This document shows, in pieces, positions 48,873-64,000 of a stretch of 64,000 nucleotides of DNA. Origin of the DNA: Vreelandella subglaciescola (GTDB lineage: Bacteria; Pseudomonadota; Gammaproteobacteria; Pseudomonadales; Halomonadaceae); contig JAKDRW010000004.1 of NCBI GenBank assembly GCA_030454225.1, positions 1 to 64,000 on the forward strand, given 5' to 3'. The notes beneath the pieces were generated by a model. That model had not been told where the DNA came from. It was given only the letters and a program-made list of their open reading frames with translations, and did no database searches. The position numbers and the translations under genes are program-made. Numbering within the stretch: the first letter of the stretch is position 1; each line of letters begins with the position of its first letter.

Positions 48873-50090
48873 ATGACACCAACAAACCAGAATCCTTTTG
48901 CCGACGGCAGCTACGGCAACGACCGCTTCAATGCCACCAACGGCCACTTTGCCGATGCAGGCGGCTTTGATCAGCTGACGCTTTCCGGCGTCTTTTCCGA
49001 CTATTCCGCCGGCCTTGTCGGCCACCGCCATTTGCTGCTGAGCAATCAGCAGACCGGCGACAACGTGCTGGTGCTGGACTGGCGCGGCCAGGGGCGTATT
49101 GAGTCTTTCGTCGATGCCAGCGGGCAACAGGTGTTTGAAGGCCAGATGGAACAGGCCCTGTTTGCCCCTGCGTATGGCCAGCACTTTGGTCCGGGCAGCC
49201 ATCCGCTTGAAGGCCTGACAGGTCTGGGCAACATTCCCACCGCTCAGGCCATGGAAACCCTCGGCGAAACCGATCTCAGCCCGGTGCAGTTTCTCAACCA
49301 GCTCTCCATCAACGCCAAACTTGCTCAGCTTGACCTGCACGAGGTAGCGGCGGAGCTAACCGGTGATGCCAGCGATAACGCGGACATCGGTCAGGCATTT
49401 GCCACCGCCGCCCAGCACCACCTGAGCCCGCAGGAGCAGCAAACCTGGCACGAACTCAATTATGACGAGAAGTTGGCTCAGACCGACTACGAAGGGCTCG
49501 ACCTGAGCGGCTTCATCAACGACGACGAGACCGGCAACGACGACGCTGACGACGAAGCAGAAAACGACGAGACCGATACTGATAGCGACGACGATCTCGA
49601 CGAAGACGAAGACGAAGACGAAGACGAAGACGAAGACGAAGACGAAGACGAAGACAGCGATGATGACGACGTCGACGGCGATGACAATCAGCAAGACGGC
49701 GGTCATCAGGCCAGCATCGACGCCGAAACCGCGTCACTGCTGAGCGATCTGTTCCAGGCCGTGCTGGACCGCCCGCTGCACAACGCCGAGCACACCGAGT
49801 GGGCCCATGAGCTTGCCGACGGCGACAACCTTGCCGACATCGCCGACGACTTCCTCGACTTTGACGAGTACGAAGCCCGCTTTGAAACCGACAACGATCA
49901 GGCTTTCGTCAGCCAGTCGTTCGATCATCTGCTGGGGCGTGCACCCGGCGCCGAGGAGCTTGACGCCTGGACCAATCAGCTGGAAAGCGGCGTTGACCGC
50001 GAAGACATGCTGGTCGATTTTGTCACCGCAGCAAATGAGAATGCCGATGTCGTCGGCGTTAGCCAGCCGGCGGATATCGCCATTGGCTGA
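48873..50090 (+). CDS. Acidic-repeat protein with DUF4214-like C-terminus
   Basis: Central (DE)9 tract; C-terminal LDRPLHNAEHTEWAHEL... and LGRAPGAEELDAWTNQLESGVDREDMLVDFV. Confidence 0.8.
   Translation: MTPTNQNPFADGSYGNDRFNATNGHFADAGGFDQLTLSGVFSDYSAGLVGHRHLLLSNQQTGDNVLVLDWRGQGRIESFVDASGQQVFEGQMEQALFAPAYGQHFGPGSHPLEGLTGLGNIPTAQAMETLGETDLSPVQFLNQLSINAKLAQLDLHEVAAELTGDASDNADIGQAFATAAQHHLSPQEQQTWHELNYDEKLAQTDYEGLDLSGFINDDETGNDDADDEAENDETDTDSDDDLDEDEDEDEDEDEDEDEDEDSDDDDVDGDDNQQDGGHQASIDAETASLLSDLFQAVLDRPLHNAEHTEWAHELADGDNLADIADDFLDFDEYEARFETDNDQAFVSQSFDHLLGRAPGAEELDAWTNQLESGVDREDMLVDFVTAANENADVVGVSQPADIAIG
49599..49652 (+). repeat. (GACGAA)9 hexanucleotide tandem repeat encoding (Asp-Glu)9
   Basis: Nine perfect contiguous units read directly. 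Confidence 0.95.
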
Positions 50091-56206: not shown

Positions 56207-57652
56207 TCACAGTGAATGGTAAATATTCAATGCCTCTTGCTCGGACAGTTCGGCTGCATCGCCCAATCGCCTGGAAATCTCCTCTTTGCGATTCTGCCCC
56301 GCGCTCATCAGCCACATAGGCACCGTCAGAGAAAGTGCGTCCGCCCAGAGCCGCTGCGTATCATCATTCACCGGCACTTCCCATGCTGTATTGCCGGGGG
56401 CCAGTCGCAAACATAGCTGGAGAAGCGCATCCATCTGTGCCAAGTCAAAACACTCCGGCACTATGCGATCCAATACCTGCCAGGTGATAAACAGCAAGTG
56501 TCGGCTCAAGTCGTCCGTATCGGCCGGAGGGGTCATGCCGACATTCCGGTAGGCCTGCTGGAGCATCTGCCGACCGGATACCTCCTGGTACACTGACAGC
56601 ATGCAGGCGTCAGGCGGCGGCATGCCACCATCAAAGCTGGACAATGCCTGAGCCCGGCTGCTGGCCAGCAGCACCCATCCCGGGGCATCGTTCAAAAGAG
56701 CCTGTAGGCGGGATGTCTCACGCGCTGGATCACTCTCCTTTGCTGCGATCAGCGTCAACATGGGGTCTTGGCTCCCGGCATCCTTGATTGCGGCACCAGC
56801 CGCTTCTGCGACCCCATGGCGCGCTTGCAACTCCCGGGCCACCACGACGAACCGCTTGAAGCCGGCCTCAACCGCCAGGCTCAGCCGTCGAAACACGTCC
56901 GGCGAGACATGCACTTCCGGCAGTGTCGAGGTGCTTAGAATCTGGTGGGTGATCGACTGCGTTTCGAGCCGGTCGAACACTCGGGCAAAGGCCATCTGGC
57001 TTGCCTGATCTGACGCTTCGCACACCGTCATCATCGGCCATGCTTCCAGAGCACGAAGAAGCGCCGACTCCATTGCCGACCGTTGTGATTGAGTTGCTAT
57101 CGATTCCGTGTTGTCCGGTGGTGGCGAAATCAGCAGCGCCTGATGAATGGATATGGTCTGCGTTGGGCTGCCGCGGCGGGTGACGGCAACGGATGGCGCC
57201 AGCCCAGACGCCGGAGGTGATGCCGGCACCGTGCGCAACGCCACGCTGGAAGACCCCAGGGGCAGTGGCGGATCAACAATGATCACCACGCGGCATTCGT
57301 AATGCGGCACGGCCTCCCATGATTGGGTGTCGTTTTTACGGTGCAGGAACAGCACCCGGGCAACCACGATGCCTACCGGCTGCGTCATGTTGTACTGCCC
57401 TATCGTGCCCTCCGGCTCCACGACAAGAGCATCCGGCTGATCGAGGGGGCCTTCAATGCGAACGATCCACCGCGGTGGTTTTGCACTGAGCTTGCGATGG
57501 AAAGCTCCTTCGGCTGGGTCAAACTCAACCGTTGGCTCGTTTCCGCAAGTACGGATAATCGCATGTTTGCGCGTAATCACCGGGCTCATTCTGTCTTTTA
57601 ACGCTTCAAGCGTCTCCAGAACCGCCGCGCTGTGGGTGTTGATTGTCTTCAC
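56207..57652 (-). CDS. Uncharacterised protein of the accessory (defence-like) module
   Basis: 481-aa ORF, GTG start overlapping the helicase stop (GTGA). Confidence 0.8.
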   Translation of the reverse strand: MKTINTHSAAVLETLEALKDRMSPVITRKHAIIRTCGNEPTVEFDPAEGAFHRKLSAKPPRWIVRIEGPLDQPDALVVEPEGTIGQYNMTQPVGIVVARVLFLHRKNDTQSWEAVPHYECRVVIIVDPPLPLGSSSVALRTVPASPPASGLAPSVAVTRRGSPTQTISIHQALLISPPPDNTESIATQSQRSAMESALLRALEAWPMMTVCEASDQASQMAFARVFDRLETQSITHQILSTSTLPEVHVSPDVFRRLSLAVEAGFKRFVVVARELQARHGVAEAAGAAIKDAGSQDPMLTLIAAKESDPARETSRLQALLNDAPGWVLLASSRAQALSSFDGGMPPPDACMLSVYQEVSGRQMLQQAYRNVGMTPPADTDDLSRHLLFITWQVLDRIVPECFDLAQMDALLQLCLRLAPGNTAWEVPVNDDTQRLWADALSLTVPMWLMSAGQNRKEEISRRLGDAAELSEQEALNIYHSL

Positions 57653-59874
57653 TCGTCTTCCTCCATGTCGCCGTCTCCCTCGCTGCCGTAGATGTCATCC
57701 AGCGACAATCCGAGATCCGAGGCCATCTGTCTGAGCCGGGACACATCCCCACCTTGATTCATGGCGTGGTCCGCAAACTCAAGCGCGCGCAATAATTCGG
57801 AGCGCGTCAAAGATCCATGAATGTCCTTGTCCATGTCCGGCGGAACCACCAGGGCATCCCAGATTTCAGCCCGCACCTTGCCCGGCGCCTTTCGGAGCAC
57901 GCGGCCGCGACGCTGGATAAATTGGCGCGGATTCTGGCTCGACGCCAAAATGATGGCGTGAGAAATCTCGGGAATATCGACCCCTTCATCCAGGCAGCGA
58001 ATGGACACCATCACCCCACTGCTGGCGCGAAAGTCCGCGAGTGTGGCATCAAGGTCGCCAGGCATGTCCGAGTAGTACGTCCAGACCGGGAAGCCGCCTT
58101 CGGCAATTTGCTGCACCACCTGCTTCAACTGCTCCTGATCCTCGCAGTAGACCAGCCAGTGCTGGCCGGGCTCATAGTGCGCTTCCAGTACATCCCCGGC
58201 GATACGCTCCTTGGCAGCCGCTTTCTTGGCGACCCGGGATCGCTTGATCTTCAAGAGCCGAATGGCCTGGCTGTCCTTGGGGCTTCCATCCGCCTCCCTT
58301 GGGCCACGCTGAATGGCGCGACGCAGCTGATCCGTCAGCTCTTCCCATTGTTCGGATTCTTCGGCATTCAGGCTGACCGTGACGGGATGGTAGCGGTAAG
58401 GGGTCAGTCGCCCTGCTTCCATGGCATCGGCAAGCGTGAAGGGCTTTCCCACCATCCCCTGAAAGTACATCATCAGCGCCTCGGTGCCGTCAGGATCACC
58501 AAAGCGCTTCGGGGTGGCAGAGAGGCCTAGGCGAAACCCGGCATTGATGCGAAATAGCTGCTGGTGCTTCTGGCTTCCCGTCTGGTGAACCTCGTCGGCC
58601 ACCAGCAGCAAGTTACGTGGCTTCTTCAAGCGCTTCCAGAACGCGGGCGTTGAGGCTGTCTGCATGGTCGCCAGAATGGCCATGGGTGACCTGGGATTGG
58701 GTGAGGCAGTCTGAGCCTCTAGCACCATCGGCTCCCGCCATCGGTCATGGCCACCTCCCACGCGCAATATGTGGGCGTCAGGAATCTCTGTCCTGATCTC
58801 GCTATACCAGCCCTTCATCAATAGCTGGCTGGGCACCACGACCAGCACGATGCCCACTTCACGCAAATGATCCCGTATCGCGTGCAGCGCGGTGAAGGTC
58901 TTTCCTGACCCGGTAGCATGAACGAAGATCCCCCGCCGGCCGGCTTCTTCCCACAGCGTCAACGCCTGACGCTGATGGGGTTCCGCCACCCGCCTGCTGG
59001 GCCAAACGGCCTCGGCATCTTGTTCTTCATGGTATGCGTCCTCTTCGGGCAGTGGTGTATCCAAGCCAGCAGCAATGACGGTAGCCCGGCGACGCTCTTG
59101 ATACCGCGCCAGCATGGCCTTCACTTCCTCGGGGTCATCCGGCGCCGCCTGGATGACGGAATCCCGCATGGCCTGATCCAGAGCCACCGTTTCCACCCGG
59201 GCATAACGGTTTTCCCAGACCTCGTTGAAGTCGTGCTGATGATCGCGCACACGCGGGCCATCGGCTTGGCGCCAGCTACAAAACACGTCGATGGACTCAA
59301 TGTTGCCTTGCAGGCCCCAGCCGCTATAGGTCTCATTGACCGAGCCCTTGAAGCTCAGGGTGTTGCCCTGGGCGTCATGGAACAGCCCCATCTTTTCATG
59401 AAACAGGCCATCCCCGCCGCGCAACAGGGCAATCCGTACATCGAGGAATCCGTGGTGAATCAGGCCGCCCAGCAAAGCGTGGTGCCATTCTCCTTGGGCG
59501 TCGCGCTGAAGCGCCTGCACTTCTCGGAGAAATGCCTCTCGACTGATGTTGGTCAGCGCGGCCGTGGCCTCACCATTCCCGCGTGCCTCAGATTGAACGG
59601 CGCCAGCAAGGGCGTCCTTGTCATCGCGGGACAGGTAAGGAGAGATCAAAAGCTCCATCCGCCCACCACGCACCAGGAAATCCGTTAGCTGGGGGTACAT
59701 CAGGGCGAATACCGTGGATCGAAAATACCCCGACGTGCGCTGAATTACCTGACTCGCGGCCATGGCTGGCGCGTAAAAATCCGCGGCGAGATTATTGCGA
59801 CCTGACCGATAGGATGTCTCCCAGGTCTTTTCGGCCAGATCCGCGGCGCCTACTCCCTGCTTCGCTGTGCTCAT
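57649..59874 (-). CDS. PLD-family nuclease fused to SF2 DEAD/DEAH helicase (SauUSI-like architecture)
   Basis: PLD: FHEKMGLFHDAQGNTLSFKGSVNETYSGW; helicase: ATGSGKT, VADEVH, SATPKR, RCLDEGVDIP, QRRGRVLRK. Confidence 0.9.
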   Translation of the reverse strand: MSTAKQGVGAADLAEKTWETSYRSGRNNLAADFYAPAMAASQVIQRTSGYFRSTVFALMYPQLTDFLVRGGRMELLISPYLSRDDKDALAGAVQSEARGNGEATAALTNISREAFLREVQALQRDAQGEWHHALLGGLIHHGFLDVRIALLRGGDGLFHEKMGLFHDAQGNTLSFKGSVNETYSGWGLQGNIESIDVFCSWRQADGPRVRDHQHDFNEVWENRYARVETVALDQAMRDSVIQAAPDDPEEVKAMLARYQERRRATVIAAGLDTPLPEEDAYHEEQDAEAVWPSRRVAEPHQRQALTLWEEAGRRGIFVHATGSGKTFTALHAIRDHLREVGIVLVVVPSQLLMKGWYSEIRTEIPDAHILRVGGGHDRWREPMVLEAQTASPNPRSPMAILATMQTASTPAFWKRLKKPRNLLLVADEVHQTGSQKHQQLFRINAGFRLGLSATPKRFGDPDGTEALMMYFQGMVGKPFTLADAMEAGRLTPYRYHPVTVSLNAEESEQWEELTDQLRRAIQRGPREADGSPKDSQAIRLLKIKRSRVAKKAAAKERIAGDVLEAHYEPGQHWLVYCEDQEQLKQVVQQIAEGGFPVWTYYSDMPGDLDATLADFRASSGVMVSIRCLDEGVDIPEISHAIILASSQNPRQFIQRRGRVLRKAPGKVRAEIWDALVVPPDMDKDIHGSLTRSELLRALEFADHAMNQGGDVSRLRQMASDLGLSLDDIYGSEGDGDMEEDE

Positions 59875-59897
59875 TGGTCTACGCCTCAGTGAACTTG

Positions 59898-59905
59898 TGA
59901 TATCA
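59898..59905. promoter_or_regulatory. TGATATCA palindrome in an AT-rich divergent promoter
   Basis: tTGATATCATATCATATAAG-like element inside the 76-bp gap between divergent genes. Confidence 0.4.
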
Positions 59906-59950
59906 TATCATATAAGAAGCTGGTAAAACTGATGCCCATGAGGATACGCC

Positions 59951-61177
59951 ATGCCACCCCCTCACGACCTACAAGGACTGACCCCGGAAGCACTTGCCGC
60001 TTTCCGCTCTGTCGCCAATACCCATGCTTGCCCCGAAGTCATGAGGTATCTCGAACAGATGGAGCAAAGGCACTCGACCATCGAAGCCACACTGACAGAG
60101 GCGCGCCATGCCCCGCTGTACTCTGTTCAGCGAACGACCCACGGCACCCTCTACGAAGGCAATGCGTTGACCTACATGCAGCAGCAGACGGCGGGCTCTC
60201 TTGACCTGATTATGACATCGCCGCCATTCGGGCTGGTGCGAAAGAAGGCCTACGGCAACGCCGCCGCAGAGGAGTATTGCGACTGGTTCCGCCCCTTTGC
60301 GATGGAGATGTACCGACTGCTCAGCGATACCGGTAGCCTGGTGATCGACATTGGCGGGAGTTGGGAGAAGGGGCAGCCGACCCGTTCGCTCTATCATTAC
60401 GATCTGCTGGTCATGCTGGTGCGCGAGTTCGGGTTCTATCTATGCCTGGAGCACTATTGGTTCTCCCCCTCAAAGCTGCCTAGCCCGGCCGAGTGGGTCA
60501 CGATCCGGCGCATACGCCCCAAGGATGCCGTCAACTGCGTCTGGTGGTTATCCAAGACGCCCTTCCCCAAGGCGAGCAACAAGCGCGTGCTGTCGCCCTA
60601 CTCCGACTCCATGGAAAACCTGCTGCGTAAAGGTTATGAGGGGCGCAAGCGCCCTAGCGGGCATGACATCAGTGAGCGTTTCAGCGAGCGCCAGCAAGGG
60701 GCCATCCCATCGAACCTGCTGGCCATCGCCAATACCGAGAGTAGCTCGCACTACTCGGCGTACTGCCGGGAGCATGGGTATCCCATCCACCCAGCGCGGT
60801 TCCCCGCCAAGCTCCCCGAGTATTTCATTCGCATGCTGACCGACCCGGGCGATCAGGTGTTCGACCCATTTGCCGGGTCATTCCTGACCGGCCGCGTATG
60901 TGAAGAACTGGGCCGCAAATGGGCAGGCACGGAAGTGCAGCGCGATTACATCCAAGGGGCGCTTTCGCGTTTTGCCCCCGATGCCCCGAACGTATTGCGC
61001 TACGACAAGACCACCTATGCCCTGCCCGGGCCATGCGCTTTCGGCAACACCGATGATGTCCCCCTGGTGCCAGACGGAGGGCGTCACCGGGCTAATAAAC
61101 GGCCGGCATCCGTTGATGCCGCGGATGAAGACGCAGAGGACGAAACAGGACAAAAGGAGAGCCGTCATGAGCTTTGA
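59951..61177 (+). CDS. DNA methyltransferase, beta-class N4-cytosine/N6-adenine type
   Basis: Catalytic TSPPFG precedes SAM motif DPFAGSFLTGRVCEELGRKWAGTEV. Confidence 0.9.
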   Translation: MPPPHDLQGLTPEALAAFRSVANTHACPEVMRYLEQMEQRHSTIEATLTEARHAPLYSVQRTTHGTLYEGNALTYMQQQTAGSLDLIMTSPPFGLVRKKAYGNAAAEEYCDWFRPFAMEMYRLLSDTGSLVIDIGGSWEKGQPTRSLYHYDLLVMLVREFGFYLCLEHYWFSPSKLPSPAEWVTIRRIRPKDAVNCVWWLSKTPFPKASNKRVLSPYSDSMENLLRKGYEGRKRPSGHDISERFSERQQGAIPSNLLAIANTESSSHYSAYCREHGYPIHPARFPAKLPEYFIRMLTDPGDQVFDPFAGSFLTGRVCEELGRKWAGTEVQRDYIQGALSRFAPDAPNVLRYDKTTYALPGPCAFGNTDDVPLVPDGGRHRANKRPASVDAADEDAEDETGQKESRHEL

Positions 61178-61487
61178 CCCCCAAGCCTTCCAGGAACAGG
61201 AAGAGCAACGCACGCAGAAGCTAGAGGAAATCACGGGTAGCGACATTGCCTTTCGCACGCTGAAGGATATTTGCGCAGAGATAGATGGCAGCGATACGCG
61301 CCTGGAAAACGACGTGATCCGGCTGTATGAGACCGCGGAGGCCATTGAACTGGAAGCCCTGGGCACCAGTCGCGGACTGGAAGGCCGCAAGGCCATGAAT
61401 CAGCTAATGACGACGCGCGGGAAGTCCCTGTTTGCCAGCCTGATGGCCGAAGATGCTGATAATGAACCCACCTCGGAGGATACCTGA
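61167..61487 (+). CDS. Uncharacterised 106-aa protein of the accessory module
   Basis: ATG overlaps methyltransferase end by 11 bp; stop lies 1 nt before the next ATG. Confidence 0.75.
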   Translation: MSFDPQAFQEQEEQRTQKLEEITGSDIAFRTLKDICAEIDGSDTRLENDVIRLYETAEAIELEALGTSRGLEGRKAMNQLMTTRGKSLFASLMAEDADNEPTSEDT

Positions 61488-61488
61488 C

Positions 61489-63552
61489 ATGGCCAAGCCA
61501 TCCCTCTCGTTCCAGCACGTCACGCTCGAAAACATCGGCGCCTACTTCGGCGAGCACACGGTGGATTTCCCGAGCGGCCATCGCAACATGATGATGATTC
61601 ATGGCAACAATACCGGCGGCAAAACCAGCTTCATCAACGGCCTGAAGTGGTGCCTCTTTCACCAGATCAGCACCAGCCACGAAGGTCTGCTTGACCCGTT
61701 TACGCTGTATAACCGCAAGGCACTGGCCAAAGGCTCGGCTCACCCCATGAGCGTCACCATAGAGGCGGAATACAACGGCCAGCCGATCATTATCAACCGG
61801 ACGGCCAAGTGGCTATACGACAAGACCCGGCCCCGCTCGTATGAGGAGGTGGCCACAGGCTTCACCATTACGCAGTTCGACGAGAACGGCTCCCGCCAGC
61901 CGTTGAGCGAGGAAGATTCCGAGCGCTTTATCCGCCGCATCGCGCCCCCGGTGCTTGGTCGCTTCTTCCTGTTCGATGGTGAACTGCTGAGCGAATACGA
62001 AACGCTGGTGTCTCGTAGTGCCGGGAGCAACCCCAAGCTGGGAGAAGCGATTAGCGGCGTGCTGGGGCTCCCCGTTCTGGAGAAGGCAGCCGGCGTGCTG
62101 CAGGCGGCCAAGAAAGAGGCCGACCGCAAAAACATGACCCTGGCCCGCGGGGAAAGCGCCGAAGGCTTGGTGGAGCGCATCAAAGGCCTTGAGAGCAACC
62201 TTGAGCGCTGCACCGAGGAATGCGCAGAAATTGACGACCAACTGGACGCCTTGGGTGACAGCTTGGCCGCGGCGGAAGCGGAGTATAAGTCCTACGCCGC
62301 CACGGAAGCTGATCTGAACCAGATATCGGTGCTGGAAAAGCACAACGCCGACCTGGATGCCGAAATCACCAGGAACCAGACCACCTTGGCAAAGGCCAGC
62401 AGCAACGTGTGGCACGACCTGGCGAAACCGACCTTGGAGCGCCAATTAGACAGCCTGGTATCGAAAAGCGATGCGCTGCACCAGCAAAGCCAGCAGACCT
62501 TGAAGCGGGATCACCTGGAAGAACTTCGACGCGCCCTGCTGGATGAGGAGGATTGCCCGGTATGTCTACAGCACCTCAAGCCGGACGCCCGGGCATCCGT
62601 CAAAAGCATGCTGGATGCGCTGGACGCTGACCGTGAAGTTAGGCAGCAAAAGACCGACGACTACGAGGACTTGATCGCCAAGCGGAAAGAGGTGGAGCGG
62701 CTTAGTCGGGCCATGACGCCGATCAAAACCGAATATGAAATGCGGACGGAGCGCATCAAGGAAATCGTGAGCACCAAGGCGCGAAACCTCTCCGAAATCG
62801 ATCACATCAAAAGCGAGGCAAATAGCATCTCGCCGGATGTGATTGAGGGGGCAAGGAAAAAGGTGCTGTCGCTGACACGAGAGCAAGCCGCTCTGGAAGA
62901 GCATAAGAAAACGGCTCTGAAGCACCAGAAAGACCTGGAGATCGAAAAGGACGAGCAGCTAAGTCGCATGCAAAGCACCATCGAGCATGACGAAGAAGCC
63001 AAGCAGGTCAAGCGCGTCCTCTCTCGGCTGGCGCACATGGAATCGGTCATCGACCAGGCCAAGAATCGCCAGGCTGAGGCGATGCGCAAGAAAGTCGAGG
63101 AGTACACCAGTCATGCCTATCGGGCCATGACGCATGAAACCCACCATGCAGCCGTCAAAATCGAGCCAGGCACGTTCAACATGACGATCCTGGATGATGA
63201 GAACAACCCCGTCACTCGTCCTTCCTCGGGCGCGACCCAGATTCTTGCGCTGGCGCTCATTATCTCTCTCGGCCAGATTGGCCGGAAGATCGGCCCTCTG
63301 GTCATGGATACGCCGCTGGGTCGCCTTGATCCCAGTCACCGCATCAAAGTGCTGAGTTACCTGCCGCAGCACACCCACCAGGTCGTGCTTCTCTACCATG
63401 GCGGCGAGATTGACAAGGCGACCTACGAGCGCGTCGCCAAGATGGGGCAGATTGGCAAGGAATACGAAATTTCGAAGGGTAGCGCCGAAAGCTCTTCCCG
63501 GCTGGTGCCCAAGCAGAGTGCGGCGTTCTCAGGAGGTGACGACCATGAGTGA
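61489..63552 (+). CDS. DndD/Rad50-like SMC-type ATPase
   Basis: Walker A GNNTGGKTSF, coiled coil with CPVC, SSGATQILALALI signature, VMDTPLGRLDPSHR. Confidence 0.88.
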   Translation: MAKPSLSFQHVTLENIGAYFGEHTVDFPSGHRNMMMIHGNNTGGKTSFINGLKWCLFHQISTSHEGLLDPFTLYNRKALAKGSAHPMSVTIEAEYNGQPIIINRTAKWLYDKTRPRSYEEVATGFTITQFDENGSRQPLSEEDSERFIRRIAPPVLGRFFLFDGELLSEYETLVSRSAGSNPKLGEAISGVLGLPVLEKAAGVLQAAKKEADRKNMTLARGESAEGLVERIKGLESNLERCTEECAEIDDQLDALGDSLAAAEAEYKSYAATEADLNQISVLEKHNADLDAEITRNQTTLAKASSNVWHDLAKPTLERQLDSLVSKSDALHQQSQQTLKRDHLEELRRALLDEEDCPVCLQHLKPDARASVKSMLDALDADREVRQQKTDDYEDLIAKRKEVERLSRAMTPIKTEYEMRTERIKEIVSTKARNLSEIDHIKSEANSISPDVIEGARKKVLSLTREQAALEEHKKTALKHQKDLEIEKDEQLSRMQSTIEHDEEAKQVKRVLSRLAHMESVIDQAKNRQAEAMRKKVEEYTSHAYRAMTHETHHAAVKIEPGTFNMTILDDENNPVTRPSSGATQILALALIISLGQIGRKIGPLVMDTPLGRLDPSHRIKVLSYLPQHTHQVVLLYHGGEIDKATYERVAKMGQIGKEYEISKGSAESSSRLVPKQSAAFSGGDDHE

Positions 63553-64000
63553 TTTCAACGAACAGACACAGCAAGCCGATATGGGCCGCACCGTCAGCCT
63601 GTCCGCCCGGGCTCGGGCCACGCTCAAGATGGCAACCGGCGTGACGATAGGCGCTATCGACCTGCCCTTGTTTGAAACGGACACCGAAGCGATCCGGTTT
63701 GCCTGTCTGCTCGGACTTCGCTATCACGGCGATACGATGCCGCCACTGGCTGATGGACGCGATGCCAACGCCCAGACCGTGATTAACGTCGGCACGCTGG
63801 ATACCAGCGCACCCTCCTTCATCAGCACTGTCAAACTGCTGGCGCCTGACACCGTGCAGAAAGAAAGGCTCACCCGCATTGTTCGCGCCCATGCAGAGTG
63901 GGGGCTGGCCCAAATCCAAAAATGGATTGAGGAGGCAGAGCTTGAGGGTGATGACCTTGATCTGGCCCATCTGGTGAAAAAAGGCGAAGCCCTGCTGGAC
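63545..64000 (+). CDS. Uncharacterised protein, truncated by window edge
   Basis: ATGAGTGA overlap with preceding gene; MSDFNEQTQQADMGRTVSLSARARATLKMATGVTIGAIDLPLFETDTEAIRFACLLGL... Confidence 0.7.
   Translation, partial: MSDFNEQTQQADMGRTVSLSARARATLKMATGVTIGAIDLPLFETDTEAIRFACLLGLRYHGDTMPPLADGRDANAQTVINVGTLDTSAPSFISTVKLLAPDTVQKERLTRIVRAHAEWGLAQIQKWIEEAELEGDDLDLAHLVKKGEALLD

Follow-up and report, generated by a model that had tools for sequence, protein, structure and literature searches.

The window analysed here, a stretch of 64,000 nucleotides, ends in a locus of the PbeABCD/CxC-ABC-ATPase-DndE type. Its genes code for PbeA, a DNA methyltransferase (MTase), a small protein, PbeC and PbeD, followed by a DNA-binding protein that resembles sigma factors and the RNA polymerase alpha-CTD (sigma/alphaCTD-like). 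They lie in an island of ~11 kb (window positions 56207-64000, continued beyond the window at L002:8001-11265) whose G+C content is 0.59, against ~0.64 in the flanks on both sides. When its boundaries were sought by synteny, a single flanking gene was recognised in the regions of relatives. Outside the island, a gene next to ssb (48873-50090) codes for a protein of 405 aa that contains an extended Asp/Glu repeat (EDEDED...).

The pbeA gene (57649-59874, minus strand) is an uninterrupted ORF of 741 codons, present in one copy in the assembly; the plus strand of the same interval has 11 stops. Its product is assigned as an HKD/PLD nuclease fused to an XPB-like SF2 translocase based on PADLOC, motifs, an AlphaFold2 model and the PDB fold match. 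The initial annotation had read this ORF as a single polypeptide combining nuclease and helicase. This is borne out, with the PLD domain at the amino terminus and the SF2 motor behind it, and all the motifs then quoted are found in PbeA. The HKD motif, F-H159-E-K161-MGLFH-D167 ... F-K-G177-S178-V-N180-E, follows the pattern HxK(x)5D(x)9GSxN and occurs once. The SF2 motifs are Walker A (TGSGKT, 321-326), DEVH (427-430), SATPKR (452-457), DEGVDIP (629-635) and QRRGRVLRK (654-662). Among 72 aligned homologues H159, K161, G177, S178 and N180 are invariant, as are T321, G324-K325-T326, D427/E428/H430, S452-A453-T454 and Q654-R655-G657-R658 of the motor, and D167 is conserved in at least 90% of them. 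Such invariance argues that the motifs are not due to chance and that both the nuclease and the helicase activities are under selection; it holds alike in the two PbeA clades described below. The presence of a single HKD motif implies that the active nuclease should be a dimer, by analogy with the dimeric nucleases SauUSI and BfiI (PMC7913695).

Family profiles place the protein among PbeA homologues. Pfam identifies ResIII (2e-20) and Helicase_C (4e-14), and the PADLOC PbeA profile matches residues 13-708 with an E value of 7e-202, compared to 1e-8 for the type IV profile mREase_IV. NCBIfam TIGR04095 (DNA phosphorothioation system restriction enzyme) scores 340 bits, under its cut-off of 600. 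The AlphaFold2 model has a mean pLDDT of 87.3 and a pTM of 0.65. Its comparison to solved structures, which had been suggested for SauUSI in particular, returned SauUSI (7CLG) as the top PDB fold match over all 741 columns (E 3.6e-20), followed by archaeal XPB. The TM-scores are low (0.34), so that the domain order agrees while the relative placement of the domains does not.

The MTase gene (59951-61177, plus strand) is divergent from pbeA, 76 bp apart. It codes for a beta-class enzyme that matches M.PvuII (1BOO) over 283 residues (E 2.7e-92, 313 bits) and Pfam N6_N4_Mtase (7e-39). The protein is circularly permuted, its motif IV (TSPPF) preceding motif I. This arrangement and the homology to M.PvuII make it a probable N4-cytosine (m4C) methylase. 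It is the single N6/N4-type methylase found with the Pfam family in the 72%-complete assembly. The gene dndC was found neither in the locus nor in the assembly, an absence that is weak on its own given this completeness. The PvuII site CAGCTG occurs once in the 11-kb island, where about 7.5 copies are expected, and 73 times in the rest of the window against 57 expected. Pooled over 17 related islands it is found 36 times versus 53 expected, with other palindromes more depleted, and CAGCTG as the MTase target is suggestive only.

The MTase stop is overlapped by the gene of a 106-aa protein (61167-61487, plus strand; RBS-like AAAAGGAGAG) which occupies the PbeB position directly upstream of pbeC. 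This assignment follows position and size: comparison to other PbeB and small proteins of these loci gave an hhalign probability of 0.7%, and no profile match was found. The pbeC gene (61489-63552, plus strand) codes for a DndD-like ABC ATPase (PADLOC PbeC, E 4.5e-202) with a CxxC zinc-hook formed by C368 and C371 (numbering of the longer ORF starting at 61453). This hook is conserved in at least 90% of the CxC group and is missing from canonical DndD. The clade-2 DndE-like PbeD (158 aa; 63545-64000 in the window, plus strand) aligns to the PbeD family with an hhalign probability of 97% (E 9e-11), its gene running past the window end to contig base 64021. It is followed in L002 by genes for a 987-aa sigma-like protein and a 95-aa protein. 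The former is related over ~110 residues to proteins from sister loci that resemble sigma factors (hhalign 98%) and shows a weak Sigma70_r4 match; in the sister proteins, Sigma70_r4 and RNA polymerase alpha-CTD domains are clear.

On the minus strand, the pbeA stop shares 4 bp (GTGA) with the start of a gene coding for a 481-aa protein (56207-57652). Residues 33-300 of its product resemble the amino terminal part of AAA_5 ATPases (hhalign probability 94%, E 2e-7) that sit near Pbe loci and PvuII-like MTases. The alignment to these ATPases reveals neither Walker A nor Walker B in the 481-aa protein, which could serve as an adaptor or be a degenerate remnant without ATPase function. Its AlphaFold2 model has a pLDDT of 36 and no fold is therefore claimed. 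Searches for relatives yielded no plasmid match and, class-wide, returned the window's own copy only; a match in Aliivibrio (L109) was rejected as it falls in a chemotaxis-receptor-like ORF region. Note that an AAA_5 ATPase, a ~400-aa protein and a PvuII-like methylase, 53-55% identical to that of the window, form a triad in L032:17321-21400, L033:9753-13885 and L111:8878-13059. Two of these copies adjoin Pbe. The one on an Ensifer plasmid lacks any annotated Pbe gene in its vicinity, and the triad may represent a distinct module, McrB-like and linked to a methylase.

The distribution of modification genes was surveyed in 80 genome loci together with plasmid and relative loci, whose flanking genes were labelled with profiles. 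In genome contigs a single-sequence scan gave nothing and the loci were obtained by an alignment-based scan. A quick tree of 88 PbeA proteins, with SH-aLRT support and no bootstrap, features two groups set apart by branches with SH-aLRT values of 99-100. The clade that includes the window comprises 31 methylase-linked, 4 phosphorothioation (PT)-linked and 11 unlabelled proteins, and the other clade 0, 27 and 15, respectively. As labelling was based on flanks of 10 kb and used a methylase profile whose seed came from the methylase clade, this split may be somewhat sharper than the truth. Some unlabelled loci hold weaker methylase matches. The tree requires 9-10 label changes versus about 26 when labels are shuffled.

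The gene order MTase-PbeA-SP-PbeC-PbeD-sigmaHTH is found in an Aurantiacibacter plasmid, and the Pbe core is accompanied by a methylase also in L021, L027, L029, L030, L032-L034, L038 and L064. The linked methylases take three forms: PvuII-like SPPF enzymes that occur singly, tandem pairs of the SPPY type (Firmicutes, Bacteroidales), and DPPF enzymes as pairs or as fused double-domain proteins. These single, paired or fused forms would fit protection of both DNA strands, a palindrome requiring one enzyme and an asymmetric site two. MTaX1-like genes were found only in the methylase clade, whereas sigma-like genes are present in both clades and are thus unlikely to code for methyl-specific readers. 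Correlation with PbeA is weaker for the MTase (Mantel r 0.52) than for PbeC (0.95), which argues that MTases are exchanged.

In Clostridia, Olsenella and alphaproteobacteria, SspABCD-like PT genes lie directly beside PbeA (L016, L017, L076, L078, L081, L083, L086, L094, L096, L099, L100 and L102-L104). They code for a cysteine desulfurase, a DUF4007 protein, a ~1100-1200-aa ATPase and a PAPS-reductase/DndC-like protein, so that Pbe takes the place of SspE as the partner of an Ssp modification module. In L064:9911-12054 (Bradyrhizobium) and L075:9995-12129 (a gammaproteobacterial MAG) the PbeA sequence is divided between two ORFs, due to frameshift, sequencing error or decay.

Within the methylase clade, three of the four PT-linked loci (Aliivibrio L028, Oleispira L031 and MAG L093) group with Amphritea L059. 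Whole-genome searches of this nested group found dndC in all four genomes and a PvuII-like MTase in none, compared to matches to the latter in three of four comparison genomes; the fourth, G377 (L035), has a fused DPPF-type methylase instead. A fifth genome with dndC, the gammaproteobacterial MAG G383, carries L075 and is outside the tree owing to its split PbeA. All five are gammaproteobacterial (Aliivibrio, Oleispira, Amphritea and two MAGs). No dndC was found in the 13 other genomes tested, namely that of the window and 12 further ones, the majority of which carry a linked methylase. A gammaproteobacterial nested group thus appears, from gene content and phylogeny, to have swapped the methylase for dnd genes, and this swap is the best evidence in this analysis that the methylase and the PT module would fill the same role. 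In Aliivibrio (L028:1825-9911) three genes directly upstream of pbeA code for proteins of 534, 449 and 1727 aa that resemble DndFGH, the 1727-aa product being HerA/TrwB-like, and dndE-dndB are found downstream of pbeA.

The system characterized by Xiong et al. in 2019 is PbeABCD linked to DndCDEA in H. jeotgali A29 (PMC6459918). A virus whose DNA bears the self mark evades this system, viral DNA cleavage was not seen, virus DNA stays intact, and PbeABCD is neither toxic nor active when PT is absent (PMC6459918). The window's locus shares with it homologues of PbeA (PLD-ResIII-Helicase_C), PbeC and PbeD, and a putative counterpart of PbeB judged from position and size. It differs in the self mark, which here is probably m4C set by the PvuII-like methylase rather than PT, in the divergent pbeA forming a two-gene unit with the 481-aa gene, and in the extra sigma-like DNA-binding gene. 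Xiong et al. reported that 155 of 320 pbeAC loci lacking dndCD had a nearby MTase (PMC6459918). Rakesh et al. (2024) listed methylase-paired CxC ABC-ATPase-DndE versions and argued for cleavage (PMC10853773). These have in common with the present locus the HKD-SF2 fusion, the CxC ATPase, the clade-2 DndE and a circularly permuted N4-C methylase, as well as a small protein at the corresponding position; here, however, no MTaX1 gene was recognised, the 987-aa sigma-r4/wHTH protein follows PbeD, and the 95-aa and 481-aa proteins are additional. The methylase is a close homologue of that of the PvuII restriction-modification system, but no PvuII-type endonuclease gene was recognised, and the proposed agent of restriction is a multi-subunit complex driven by ATP.

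We consider it likely that the locus codes for a methylation-paired PbeABCD (CxC-ABC-ATPase-DndE) defence which acts, like restriction-modification, against DNA lacking the host m4C mark, with PbeA as the effector. The M.PvuII-like enzyme would mark the host genome with m4C at a probably palindromic site. PbeC-PbeD, the zinc-hook ABC ATPase and its DndE-like DNA-binding partner, would scan DNA for this site and sense the missing mark, probably aided by the adjacent sigma-r4/alphaCTD-type DNA-binding protein. PbeA has no recognition domain in cis and specificity must therefore lie in PbeC-PbeD, perhaps with the sigma-like protein. On unmarked DNA PbeA would be recruited and translocate by its SF2 motor, and the HKD-domain dimer, whose catalytic residues are invariant, would nick or cut DNA or at least block replication. 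Support comes from the full set of Pbe components around pbeA, the M.PvuII-like MTase, the lack of dndC and of a second N6/N4 MTase in the 72%-complete assembly, the recurrence of the core with a methylase in other loci, the methylase/PT clade split, and the complementarity of dndC and PvuII-like MTase across genomes. The single, paired or fused forms of the methylases, the invariant HKD and helicase residues in both clades and the evasion of the PT version by self-marked virus also speak for it. The exchange of MTases and the dissimilarity of the small protein to other PbeB count against it. No experiments on a methylase-paired Pbe were found in the open-access literature. By analogy with the PT-type system, which displays no viral cleavage and is neither toxic nor active when PT is lacking, a simple restriction enzyme would not fit well.

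The initial annotation had likened PbeA to SauUSI and asked whether, with a methylase close by, it cuts unmodified or foreign-modified DNA. SauUSI also has an amino terminal PLD nuclease followed by an SF2 ATPase and is the closest solved fold; this part of the likeness stands and would favour type IV cleavage of foreign-modified DNA, with a methylase nearby that is incidental or serves another system. Family membership does not follow. SauUSI is defined by a coupler (618-805) and a carboxyl terminal SRA target-recognition domain (806-953) (PMC7913695) that bind 5mC/5hmC, and works as a lone homodimer. Pfam identified neither domain in PbeA, whose chain stops at residue 741, ~60 residues past the helicase, and whose sequence similarity to SauUSI is confined to ~100 residues of the helicase (E 1.5e-8). 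Moreover, the full-length family match is PbeA, PbeC and PbeD adjoin it, most loci of its clade hold a methylase, and cutting the product of its own methylase would kill the host, which makes a type IV enzyme very improbable. Judged from its sequence and neighbours, PbeA is one predicted part of a known multi-gene anti-virus system that depends on partners, not a stand-alone SauUSI-like enzyme. The question of its target is answered by context: PbeA would act on DNA lacking the self mark and not on foreign-modified DNA.

Two other explanations retain the Pbe assignment. The system might depend on PT, with a methylase unrelated to it and with dnd or ssp genes that lie outside the locus or were not assembled. 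In favour are the PT dependence of the characterized Pbe (PMC6459918), an assembly completeness of only 72% and the use of dnd genes by one nested group of the methylase clade. We consider PT dependence of this locus unlikely, given that dndC, the PT gene sought, was found neither in the assembly nor in the 12 other methylase-clade genomes tested, the majority of which have a linked methylase. Alternatively, the small protein may restrain PbeA until infection disturbs methylation or the inhibitor, leading to cleavage of host DNA in a suicide response (Rakesh et al. 2024, PMC10853773). The rapid evolution of the protein in the PbeB position and the intact virus DNA in the PT system (PMC6459918) are consistent with this. 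However, a self-marked virus escapes the latter system, in which cells also tolerate losing the mark, pointing to discrimination of self from non-self rather than host killing, and we regard a suicide system as unlikely here.

The pairing of Pbe with methylases was already proposed by Xiong et al. in 2019 (PMC6459918) and Rakesh et al. in 2024 (PMC10853773). To our knowledge, the placement of this locus and its PvuII-type methylase are new, as are the split at the level of clades and the swap nested in one of them. The only Pbe system tested requires PT in self DNA and does not cut the DNA of the virus; a methylase-paired Pbe, whose mark is easy to map and to mutate, is a tractable system to study self-mark reading and HKD cutting, and this split and swap supply matched pairs for such work. 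The swap from methylase to dnd renders directly testable whether Pbe reads any self mark. It is conceivable, though we hold this tentatively, that the core PbeA-PbeC-PbeD with the sigma-like protein is indifferent to the chemistry of the mark and that the nested group is a natural replacement of methylation by phosphorothioation. If so, the Pbe core would check a defined site for the host mark while evolution swaps m4C, m6A-type double methylases and phosphorothioate, keeping sensor and effector as the mark changes.
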